Assembly: GCF_015767275.1 (NCBI RefSeq)
Contig: NZ_JADWMY010000011.1
Location: forward strand, 62,001 to 126,000
Direction: 5' to 3'
DNA from: Herbaspirillum sp. AP02
GTDB lineage: Bacteria; Pseudomonadota; Gammaproteobacteria; Burkholderiales; Burkholderiaceae_D
Length of the DNA: 64,000 bases
In this document: positions 16,781 through 21,395 of the stretch, piece after piece
Position numbering within the stretch: the first letter of the stretch is position 1
Layout: every line of letters begins with the position of its first letter
The notes under the pieces: generated by a model
Database searches by the model: none
What the model saw: the letters and a program-made list of their open reading frames with translations, nothing else
Told to the model about the DNA's origin: nothing
Made by a program: the position numbers and the translations under genes

Positions 16781-18199
16781 CTACAAGCCCCGCAGGAAAT
16801 CAAACAACTCCGGCACATCCGCATAGCCCACATTGAAACGGAAGCTGGTCTTGTCCGGTGCCGACAGATGGAAGAAATCCCCCGGCGCCAGCCAGATGCC
16901 TTTCTGCCTGGCGCGGTCGGCGATCTCGCGGGCCGACAGTGCGCAGCCTTCGAGGGTGGCCCAGGTGAACATGCCGCCGCGGGCCGGCGTGAAGGGTGTC
17001 AGGCCGGCTTCGCTCAACTTGGCATTGAGGGTGGCCTGGGCGTTGAGCAGGGTGGCATTGAGGGTCTGCACATGGCGCCGGTGATGGCCGTCGGTCAGGA
17101 CGTTATGCACCAGTCTTTCATTGATCTCCGAATTGGTCAGGGTCAATACCATCTTGGTATGCACGATCTGCCGCGCCAGTTCGCGCTGGCAGGCGATGTA
17201 GCCCACCCGCAGCGAGGGGGCGATGGTCTTGGAATAGCTGCCCACGTAGATCACCCGCTGCAGGCCATCCAGCGCTGCCAGCATGGGGTCGGTGGCCTGG
17301 CCAAGTTCGCGGAAGATGTCGTCTTCCACCACCCAGAAGCCATGCCGTTCAGCCGCCTGCAGCACGCGCATGGCGCAGGCCGGGGTGTAGGAGGTGCCGG
17401 TCGGGTTCTGCAGCACGCTGGTGGTGAAGAACATCTTGGGCCGGTGTGCCCGGGCCAGCGTTTCCAGCTGCTCGGTATCGACCCCGCCCGGAGTGCGCGG
17501 CACGCCGATCACGTTCAGGCCGGCCAGGCGCAGCATGGCGATCAGGTTGCAGTAGCCGGGGTCGTCGATCATGACCGTGTCGCCGGGCTGGGTCATGGTG
17601 CGGATGACCAGGTCCAGGGCCTGGGTGGCGCCATGGGTGGTGAGCACCTGTTCGATGCCCAGCTCCAGCGCCCAGTGGCCGAGGAACTGCGTGATCAGCT
17701 GGCGCAGCGGGGCATAGCCGTAGGGGTGGCCATAGCCCACCTGCTGCGCGCCGGGCGAGCGGATGATGCGGCGCTCGGCCTGGTGCAGGCCTTCGTCGTT
17801 GAGCCACTTGCCGGGTAGCCAGCCGCAACCGGCCTTGATGGGCACGCGTTCGTCGGCAAACATTTCCGAGAGCAGCCAGGCCGAGTCGATCACCGGTTCA
17901 TGCGGGACGAACACCGCACGGGCGCCGCTCTGACCAGCCCGTGCGGCCACGAAGAAGCCGGCGCCACGGCGTGCCAGCAACATGCCGCGTGCCACCAGTT
18001 GTTCATAGGCCTCGACCACGGTGGAGGCGCCGATGGCGTGGCTTTGGGCGAACTGGCGGACCGAGGGCAGGCGTTCGCCGGAGCGCAGTTCGCCGGCTTC
18101 GATCAGCCCGGCCAGACCGTCGGCGACCTGCTCGACCAGGCGAGCCGCGGTATTGCGTTGCAGATCGAGTTGCAGGGGCGCTCGCGGGAGCTTGGCCAT
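16781..18199 (-). CDS. MocR-type regulator (GntR-HTH fused to aminotransferase fold)
   Basis: A 472-residue MocR protein. Residues ~10-85 are a GntR-type winged helix (GERLPSVRQFAQSHAIGAST) and the remainder is a fold-I PLP aminotransferase domain. The PLP Lys is in VGSYSKTIAPSLRVGYIA. Relatives such as GabR and TauR sense omega-amino acids and activate the adjacent transaminase genes. The ATG at 18197-18199 has AAAGGA 7 bp upstream. It is divergent from the omega-aminotransferase gene across a 346-bp region holding repeated CAATACAGTT elements. Confidence 0.9.
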   Translation of the reverse strand: MAKLPRAPLQLDLQRNTAARLVEQVADGLAGLIEAGELRSGERLPSVRQFAQSHAIGASTVVEAYEQLVARGMLLARRGAGFFVAARAGQSGARAVFVPHEPVIDSAWLLSEMFADERVPIKAGCGWLPGKWLNDEGLHQAERRIIRSPGAQQVGYGHPYGYAPLRQLITQFLGHWALELGIEQVLTTHGATQALDLVIRTMTQPGDTVMIDDPGYCNLIAMLRLAGLNVIGVPRTPGGVDTEQLETLARAHRPKMFFTTSVLQNPTGTSYTPACAMRVLQAAERHGFWVVEDDIFRELGQATDPMLAALDGLQRVIYVGSYSKTIAPSLRVGYIACQRELARQIVHTKMVLTLTNSEINERLVHNVLTDGHHRRHVQTLNATLLNAQATLNAKLSEAGLTPFTPARGGMFTWATLEGCALSAREIADRARQKGIWLAPGDFFHLSAPDKTSFRFNVGYADVPELFDFLRGL

Positions 18200-18278
18200 G
18201 CTGATCCTTTCGGGTGAAGTATCGCCCATGATGTCCACTGCATTGCTGCAATCGGAGGATGTGTGTTGTGAAAACCTG

Positions 18279-18443
18279 AACTGTATTGCTCTTATGACGG
18301 CGGCCGGACCAGCGTGTTTTCCGCCCTCTCCGTCCCTATTCTCCGCTGGATAAAGGCTGCTGAGCCATCTGCACCGGCCGCCTGCGCGATGACGCTCCCG
18401 GCGGATAACCCAATACAGTTTATTGCCTTTATCAATACAGTTT
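18279..18443. promoter_or_regulatory. Three CAATACAGTT elements, likely MocR operator
   Basis: The 346-bp gap 18200-18545 between divergent genes contains CAATACAGTTT twice in direct orientation (18411-18421 and 18433-18443), exactly 22 bp apart or about two helical turns. A third copy lies in inverted orientation, AACTGTATTG at 18279-18288, nearer to the regulator gene. Paired direct repeats are the usual operator form for GabR/TauR-type regulators. The rest of the gap shows no gene. Assignment to this regulator is inference from position and repeat geometry. Confidence 0.6.
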
Positions 18444-18545
18444 CAGATCAAAATCAAAAGTGTAGCTAACAATACTGCCAGTGTCTGGCAATAATCAAGC
18501 ACTCCCTGCTGGTTTCTCCTTTTACCTTTTCCATCGGTGCCTGCC

Positions 18546-19874
18546 ATGTCCAGTCAAGACCATTCGCATCCTTCCAGCCTGTCGGCCTACTGGATGCCCT
18601 TTACCGCCAACCGCAACTTCAAGGCCGCACCGCGCATGCTGGTCTCGGCCGAGGGCATGCATTACCGCGATGACGCCGGCAATGCCATCCTGGACGGCAC
18701 CGCCGGCCTGTGGTGCGTGCCGCTGGGCCACGCCCACCCCAAGATCGTCTCGGCCGTGCAAAAGTCGGTGGCCACGCTGGACTACGCGCCCTCCTTCCAG
18801 CTGGGTCACCCCAGCGCCTTCGAACTGGCCGAACGCCTCAAGGCCTACACCGGCAACCGCTTCGCCAACGTGTTCTATACCGGCTCCGGTTCGGAAGCGG
18901 TGGATACGGCGCTCAAGATCGCCCTGGCCTATCACCGCGCCAAGGGCAATGCCACCCGCACCCGCCTGATCGGTCGCGAGCGTGGCTATCACGGCGTGGG
19001 CTTCGGCGGCATGTCGGTGGGCGGCATCGGCGGCAATCGCAAGACCTTCAGCACCGCGCTGCTGCAGGGTGTGGACCACCTGCCGCACACCCATGACCTG
19101 GAAAAGAACGCCTTCACCAAGGGCGAGCCGGAATACGGCGCGCACCTGGCCGACGAGCTGGAACGCATCGTCGCCCTGCATGACGCCTCCAACATCGCGG
19201 CCGTCATCGTCGAGCCGGTGGCCGGTTCCACCGGCGTGCTGATCCCGCCCAAGGGTTACCTCAAGCGCCTGCGCGAACTGTGCACCAAGCACGGCATCCT
19301 GCTGATCTTCGATGAAGTGATCACCGGCTTCGGCCGCCTGGGTACGCCTTTCGCGTCCGACTACTTCGACGTCGAACCGGACATCTTCACCACCGCCAAG
19401 GGCCTGACCAACGGCGTGGTGCCGATGGGTGCGGTGTTCGTGAAGAAGGAAATCCACGACGCCTTCATGAACGGCCCGGACGGCATCGAGCTGTTCCATG
19501 GCTACACCTATTCCGGCCACCCGCTGGCCTGCGCCGCCGGCCTGGCTTCGCTGGATGTGTTCGAGACCGAGGGCGTGCTGGACAATGCCCAGGCCGTGGC
19601 CGGCTACTTCCAGGAAGCGGCGCACGCGCTGCGCGGCCTGCCGCATGTGATCGACGTGCGTACCATCGGCCTGATCGCCGGTATCGAGTTGTCATCCATC
19701 CCGGGCCGCGTCGGCGCCCGTGCCTATGACGCCTTCGTGCGCGCCTTCAACGACGGCATCCTGATCCGCGTGACGGGCGACATCATCGCCCTGTCGCCGC
19801 CGCTGGTCATCAACAAGCAGCAGATCGACGAACTGTTCGGCAAGCTCGCGGCCATCCTCAAGACCCTGGCCTGA
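18546..19874 (+). CDS. Omega-amino acid:pyruvate aminotransferase
   Basis: A 442-residue class III aminotransferase. It shows YWMPFTANRNFKAAPRML at the N-terminus, FDEVITGFGRLG before the cofactor, and the PLP Lys285 in TTAKGLTNGVVPMG. This is the beta-alanine:pyruvate transaminase group, moving the amino group of beta-alanine or similar omega-amino acids to pyruvate and giving malonate semialdehyde. The ATG at 18546 fits the family; a GTG nine bases earlier is less likely. It is 27 bp upstream of the dehydrogenase that takes the product, and probably under MocR control. Confidence 0.9.
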   Translation: MSSQDHSHPSSLSAYWMPFTANRNFKAAPRMLVSAEGMHYRDDAGNAILDGTAGLWCVPLGHAHPKIVSAVQKSVATLDYAPSFQLGHPSAFELAERLKAYTGNRFANVFYTGSGSEAVDTALKIALAYHRAKGNATRTRLIGRERGYHGVGFGGMSVGGIGGNRKTFSTALLQGVDHLPHTHDLEKNAFTKGEPEYGAHLADELERIVALHDASNIAAVIVEPVAGSTGVLIPPKGYLKRLRELCTKHGILLIFDEVITGFGRLGTPFASDYFDVEPDIFTTAKGLTNGVVPMGAVFVKKEIHDAFMNGPDGIELFHGYTYSGHPLACAAGLASLDVFETEGVLDNAQAVAGYFQEAAHALRGLPHVIDVRTIGLIAGIELSSIPGRVGARAYDAFVRAFNDGILIRVTGDIIALSPPLVINKQQIDELFGKLAAILKTLA

Positions 19875-19901: not shown

Positions 19902-21395
19902 ATGGAAAAGATTGCACACTACATCGGCGGCCAGCGCGTCGATACCAAGAGCGGGCGCTACGCCGATGTCTTCAACCCGGCGCAGGGCGTGCCGGTGGCG
20001 CAGGTCGCGCTGGGTACCGCCGATGAGGTCGATGCTGCCGTCAAGGCGGGCGTGGCGGCCTTCCCGGCCTGGTCCAACACCCCGCCGCTGACCCGGGCGC
20101 GGGTGATGTTCCGCTTCCTGCACCTGATCCAGCAACGGGCCGACGACTTCGCCCGCCTGATCGTGCGCGAGCACGGCAAGACCTTCTCGGACGCCCAGGG
20201 TGAAGTGGCGCGCGGCATCGAGATCGTCGAGTTCGCCGCCGGCATTCCGCAGATGCTCAAGGGGGAATACACCGACCAGATCGCCCGTGGCATCGACGCC
20301 TGGTCGATGCGCCAGGCGCTGGGCGTGGTGGCCGGCATTACGCCGTTCAACTTCCCGGCCATGGTGCCGATGTGGATGTTCCCCATCGCCATCGCCTGTG
20401 GCAACTGCTTCGTGCTGAAGCCTTCCGAACGTGACCCGTCGGTCTCGCTGCTGATCGCCGAACTGTTGCAGGAAGCCGGCCTGCCTGACGGCGTCTTCAA
20501 CGTGGTGCAAGGCGACAAGGTCACCGTGGATGCGCTGCTGGACCACCCGCAGGTCAAGGCCATCAGCTTCGTCGGTTCGACCCCGATTGCCGAATACATC
20601 TATGCCCGTGGCTCGGCCAAGGGCAAGCGCGTGCAAGCCCTGGGCGGCGCCAAGAACCACATGGTGGTCATGCCCGACGCCGACATGCAGCTGGCCGTGG
20701 ATGCACTCATGGGTGCGGCCTATGGCTCGGCCGGCGAGCGCTGCATGGCGATCTCGGTGGCGGTCGCCGTCGGCAGCGCCGGTGACGAACTGGTGGCGGC
20801 CCTGGCCGAACGCGCGCGCAGCCTGAAGATCAACGAAGGCATGGCCGCCGGTGCCGAGATGGGTCCGGTGGTGACGGCTGCCGCCAAGGAACGCATCGAA
20901 GGCCTGATCGGCCGTGGCGTCGAAGAAGGCGCCACGCTGGTGGTGGATGGCCGTGGCTATCAGGTGCCGGGATTCGAAAAGGGCTTCTTCGTGGGCGGCA
21001 CCCTGCTCGACCACGTCACGCCGGAAATGACGGTGTACAAGGAAGAAATCTTCGGCCCGGTGCTGTGCGTGCTGCGCTGCCCCGACATCGCCAGCGCGGT
21101 GGAACTGATCAACGCCCACGAGTATGGCAATGGCGTGGCGGTCTACACCCGCGATGGCGGCGTGGCGCGTGAGTTCGTGCGCCAGATCGAGGTCGGCATG
21201 GTGGGGGTGAACGTGCCGCTGCCGGTGCCGATGGCCTTCAGCAGCTTCGGCGGCTGGAAGCGCAGTCTCTTCGGCGACCATCACATGTATGGACCGGAAG
21301 GCGTGCGCTTCTACACCCGGGCCAAGGCGGTGATGCAGCGCTGGCCCAATACGGCCAGCGCAGGTGCGGAATTCGCTTTCCCGCAGATGAAATAA
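19902..21395 (+). CDS. mmsA: CoA-acylating (methyl)malonate-semialdehyde dehydrogenase
   Basis: A 497-residue aldehyde dehydrogenase of the MmsA type. It oxidises malonate or methylmalonate semialdehyde to acetyl-CoA or propionyl-CoA with NAD and CoA. The catalytic Cys281 is in [11 protein letters not shown], and [16 protein letters not shown] and the [15 protein letters not shown] segment near the C-terminus are typical of MmsA. With the transaminase upstream it completes beta-alanine conversion to acetyl-CoA. It ends at a strong intrinsic terminator. Confidence 0.93.

Follow-up and report, generated by a model that had tools for sequence, protein, structure and literature searches.

The aptA-mmsA locus and the divergent regulator gene

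In the 64-kb stretch of DNA analysed here (the window), a gene for a MocR-type regulator and an operon encoding an aminotransferase and a dehydrogenase diverge from an intergenic region that carries several copies of the ten-base sequence CAATACAGTT. The features of the locus are the following:

16781..18199, minus strand: MocR regulator gene, OapR-type; GntR and Aminotran_1_2 domains; ATG at 18199
18236..18245, minus strand: box C, weak, with 2 mismatches, reading CAATGCAGTG on the minus strand; tenth of 189 in conservation
18259..18268, minus strand: box B, degenerate, CAACACACAT on the minus strand; conservation rank 23 of 189, clearer in relatives (e.g. L007)
18279..18288, minus strand: box A, candidate autoregulatory operator, exact CAATACAGTT on the minus strand; conservation rank 1 of 189
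18411..18420, plus strand: box 1, exact CAATACAGTT; column identity averages 0.967 over 15 rows
18433..18442, plus strand: box 2, exact CAATACAGTT, at 22 bp from box 1; column identity averages 0.98 over 15 rows
18457..18466, minus strand: box 3, a variant in inverted orientation, reading AAAGTGTAGC on the plus strand; column identity averages 0.973 over 15 rows
18466..18495, plus strand: predicted sigma-70-type promoter of aptA-mmsA, CTAACA-18 bp-AATAAT, found by promoter scan; hexamers invariant in 15 rows
18546..19874, plus strand: aptA (oapT), omega-aminotransferase; 729 bits with the NCBIfam AptA equivalog (cut-off 500)
19902..21395, plus strand: mmsA (oapD), CoA-acylating methylmalonate/malonate semialdehyde dehydrogenase; TIGR01722, 713.8 bits (cut-off 448.5)

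The regulator combines a GntR-type winged-helix domain (PF00392, 8e-14) with a fold-type-I aminotransferase domain (PF00155, 5e-39), the combination that defines MocR proteins. It matches the PDB chain 4n0b_A, GabR of Bacillus subtilis, at 5e-22; its scores with the NCBIfam models for GabR (122.3 bits) and PdxR (242 bits) are under the respective cut-offs of 600 and 320. A longer reading frame could start from the GTG at 18238, and the alignments of the relatives begin at the methionine encoded at 18199. The product of MmsA is acetyl-CoA. Downstream of mmsA, between 22023 and 26656, the open reading frames resemble by eye an ABC transporter of the branched-chain-amino-acid type.

Copies of the repeat in the window and in the genome

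Scanning the window located three exact copies of CAATACAGTT, two in direct orientation with start-to-start distance of 22 bp (boxes 1 and 2) and one inverted (box A), precisely as the first-pass annotation had described them. If one mismatch was allowed, the window contained five matches, compared with a mean of 0.86 in shuffled sequences, among which five matches were reached once in 100 shuffles. The first-pass annotation had proposed that the repeats are an operator, a view that numerous random copies elsewhere in the genome would have spoken against. The whole genome (5,332,213 bp in 24 contigs) shows no such abundance: its exact copies number five, of which the intergenic region studied holds three; the zero-order expectation from the composition of the window is 2.1 per genome. 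The remaining two copies (L120 and L121) lie inside long open reading frames and were treated as background.

The direct pair with 22-bp spacing occurs once in the genome with up to three mismatches in total. The search for further such pairs, suggested in the first-pass annotation, yielded no second one within this limit, and a second combination of box 2 with box 3 was not found elsewhere in the genome either. These observations suggest that in this genome the regulon of the regulator consists of a single operon.

Three conserved boxes and a predicted promoter upstream of aptA-mmsA

Conservation was determined in an alignment of 15 loci that have long intergenic regions; the mean identities of boxes 1, 2 and 3 listed above compare with 0.578 for the spacer of the direct pair, 0.786 for the stretch separating box 2 from box 3, and 0.512 at 180 other positions. 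Box 3 follows box 2 after a gap of 14 bp and adjoins the -35 hexamer of the predicted promoter; the sequence AAAGTGT stands beside the -35 hexamer in all 15 rows, and the combination of box 2 with AAGTGTA has a single occurrence in the genome. The promoter scan of 18150-18600 returned one match (CTAACA-18-AATAAT; mean in shuffled sequences 0.3), which coincides with a stretch invariant in the alignment, both hexamers having a column identity of 1.0.

The intergenic region is less GC-rich than the window (51% vs 64%), which could favour chance repetition of short sequences. When the intergenic region was shuffled with preservation of dinucleotides, however, any 10-mer in three copies, on either strand, appeared in 3 of 20,000 shuffles, and the conservation of the boxes stands out from a background identity of about 0.51. 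Because of this conservation we take an accidental origin of the repeats to be already refuted, with a probability close to nil.

Judged from the alignments, the predicted operator of aptA-mmsA is thus composed of three boxes, the direct pair and the inverted box 3, the last of which had been missed by the first-pass annotation. The earlier proposal that the three exact copies form the operator was incomplete in this respect: the third box belonging to aptA is the variant at 18457-18466 and not the distant inverted copy.

The spacing of the boxes was surveyed in 52 loci, comprising those with a divergent aptA and L024. In the close clade a box of the box 3 type is located 14 bp past box 2 in all 27 rows, and the 22-bp and the 14-bp distances are both kept in 26 of them. 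L023 is without box 1, and in L024 and L081 the boxes are weaker. By these comparisons the putative operator is real and conserved, and the initial reading of the repeats was nearly correct.

Among the 25 more distant rows, a box pair at 22-23 bp was present in six and a pair of variant boxes in two, whereas 17 showed none. In the Pandoraea loci L026 and L027 the pair has 22-bp spacing and the inverted box was placed by eye at 16 bp (for L026 the script gave another offset). In L082, L084 and the Caballeronia loci L125 and L126 the pair is spaced by 23 bp and followed after 16 bp by the inverted sequence AACTGTYTAT, and in L083 and L087 two copies of a variant box, CTGTACRGTY, are spaced by 23 bp. 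By eye, an inverted-direct-inverted order seems to be present in five loci from Undibacterium and related organisms (L028, L029, L032, L103 and L108). In L024, from Solimicrobium silvestre, a regulator gene and a three-box site with a weaker box 1 were found and no aptA was found in the locus; the target gene there may differ from aptA.

The distant inverted copy as a separate site on the regulator side

When 189 ten-base segments from the side of the regulator were ranked by conservation, box A came first; boxes A, B and C point in the same direction. Of the 15 loci in the long-intergenic clade, 13 preserve box A with no more than one mismatch, and L003 and L014 preserve it with two. A second alignment comprised the window together with L015-L023 and two loci from Pandoraea. 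With at most one mismatch, box A is absent from all nine loci L015-L023. Since it occurs in one clade and is absent from these nine, box A must be regarded as lineage-specific and not as a third box of aptA. It is probably an autoregulatory site, and control of the regulator's own gene from this position is plausible. A promoter for the regulator gene was not detected, either as a minus-strand match in the scan of 18150-18600 or, by eye, as a conserved element in the 15-locus alignment.

The three exact copies could alternatively make up one operator unit in which the distant copy acts together with the pair, for example through a DNA loop. Such an arrangement would be in keeping with the exactness of the distant copy and its conservation in the long-intergenic clade, and also with the apparent periodicity of its distance from box 1 (P 0.002 in 15 rows). 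A fixed helical phase between box A and the pair was rejected, however, when related rows were taken into account: P rose to 0.03 with distinct values and to 0.27 with one value per clade. Moreover, the distance varies from 108 to 146 bp across the loci, and L015-L023 keep boxes 1-3 while lacking the distant copy. We therefore consider a single unit of three exact copies unlikely, and favour two separate sites, boxes 1-3 for aptA-mmsA and box A for the regulator gene.

The box pair accompanies the regulator gene

The regulator gene (E ≤1e-130) is present in 30 of the 34 Herbaspirillum genomes, and in each of the 30, as determined by comparing positions by hand, it is adjoined by the 22-bp pair with two mismatches or fewer. 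As the genomes are related, these 30 cases do not represent independent events. Of the four genomes of the genus without the regulator gene, two (G018 and G030) lack the pair altogether, and the pairs in G022 and G029 all have three mismatches; in G022 the control matches too.

A search of 300 genomes, in which the best five candidates per genome were scored, gave 30 loci for the 66 genomes with matches. The set of relatives comprises 72 loci, the nearest of them from Herbaspirillum. In a regulator tree of 80 rows with at least 380 aligned residues each, several long branches of which were flagged by the tool, the 51 regulators divergent from aptA form one clade of 53 together with L024 and L099 (support 100/99). 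This clade takes in Caballeronia and other relatives from the Burkholderiales, and the two further MocR paralogues of the window genome (L122 and L123) fall outside it.

These paralogues raise the question whether the boxes belong to a transcription factor other than the divergent MocR protein, and arrays of the box core before unrelated genes in sister species (described below) point in the same direction. Against this, the pair adjoins the regulator gene in all 30 genomes that carry the gene and is found in none of the four that lack it, and within the window genome it occurs solely at the regulator locus. Ownership by another factor is thus very improbable. The first-pass annotation had assigned the repeats to a MocR regulator, and as to the kind of protein this was borne out, as the divergent gene encodes a MocR protein and the pair goes with the gene in all 30 genomes.

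Arrays of the box core in sister species

In 7 of the 34 genomes of the genus, CAAYACRGNNN recurs in intergenic arrays whose step is approximately 11 bp; the control gave no matches. Eleven stretches (L109-L119) from four of the seven array-bearing genomes (G033, G007, G012 and G013) were read, and matches were also found in G001, G011 and G032. The arrays precede glpD and an amino-acid ABC permease gene and also occur at two or more further kinds of locus, one of them near an MFS transporter gene. They have their core in common with the operator box, and the 11-bp step is half of the 22-bp operator spacing. The window genome contains no CAAYACRG arrays, and inspection by eye of the region before its glpD revealed no remnant. 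That the beta-alanine regulator captured a wider regulon in the sister Herbaspirillum species, or that the arrays titrate the regulator, is a rather doubtful possibility.

Proposed mechanism

Taken together, the data indicate that CAATACAGTT very probably serves as the target sequence of a switch based on vitamin B6, by which genes for the use of beta-alanine are turned on. We consider it likely that the sites described here are operators of an OapR-type MocR protein, boxes 1-3 serving aptA-mmsA and the separate box A limiting expression of the regulator's own gene. The regulator would occupy boxes 1-3 as one operator for aptA-mmsA and, without beta-alanine, the bound protein would either repress transcription or stand poised. 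Beta-alanine would react with the pyridoxal phosphate (PLP) bound by the regulator, which could then contact RNA polymerase and activate transcription from beside the -35 hexamer. The box centres are at about -86, -64 and -40 relative to the predicted start near 18502, positions that fit an activator touching RNA polymerase. AptA would then give malonate semialdehyde, from which MmsA would produce acetyl-CoA. At box A, perhaps with the help of the two weaker boxes B and C, the regulator would most likely keep its own expression in check.

Comparison with known systems

Chemistry between PLP and the inducer is treated in a part of PMC8739950. In Cupriavidus necator, a gene pair of the aptA-mmsA type has been tied to beta-alanine, with AptA yielding malonate semialdehyde and a MocR gene located upstream, as related in sections of PMC6572756. 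For strain H16 of this species, parts of PMC7057948 report that OapR and its promoter respond to beta-alanine, and propose that OapR represses without beta-alanine and activates with it.

The earlier reading of the regulator as GabR/TauR-type held insofar as direct repeats are common operators of MocR proteins (passages of PMC5320631); as to the subgroup it did not, since the closest group described so far is OapR and the GabR model gives 122 of the required 600 bits. With GabR of B. subtilis the regulator shares the winged-helix and aminotransferase domains and the divergent aminotransferase-dehydrogenase operon. According to parts of PMC9452892, GabR represses its own gene, and within 41 bp its operator has a pair of direct repeats of 6 nt that flank an inverted one, whereas here the inverted box follows the pair. 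TauR, in the relevant passages of PMC5320631, is likewise a MocR activator with spaced direct repeats, but its box is CTGGACYTAA and not CAATACAGTT, and with aptA-mmsA as divergent neighbours the present regulator falls outside the TauR group.

Among the papers listed by a search of the literature on OapR, MocR, beta-alanine, GabR repeats and the string CAATACAGT, none dealt with an OapR operator in Herbaspirillum, which is no proof that none exists. For Herbaspirillum and its OapR-type regulator, the present analysis adds a precise putative operator of three boxes together with the predicted promoter, and it separates the aptA operator from the regulator-side site. Box positions matter for the design of biosensors based on OapR, which is in use as a beta-alanine biosensor (parts of PMC7057948).

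OapR itself provides the closest comparison; it was made with the published description of OapR, and predicted fold, gene content and operator layout all match. In the sections of PMC5320631 concerned, where OapR is assigned to the use of GABA, the betaproteobacterial OapR operator has two direct boxes and one inverted box, the same layout as boxes 1-3, and the group is characterized by adjoining or divergent oapT and oapD genes, which correspond to the aptA and mmsA found here. The extra regulator-side site at 18279-18288 is described here in addition. On the basis of these correspondences, the region is a further example of the OapR-type switch already described, with its predicted layout given more fully.
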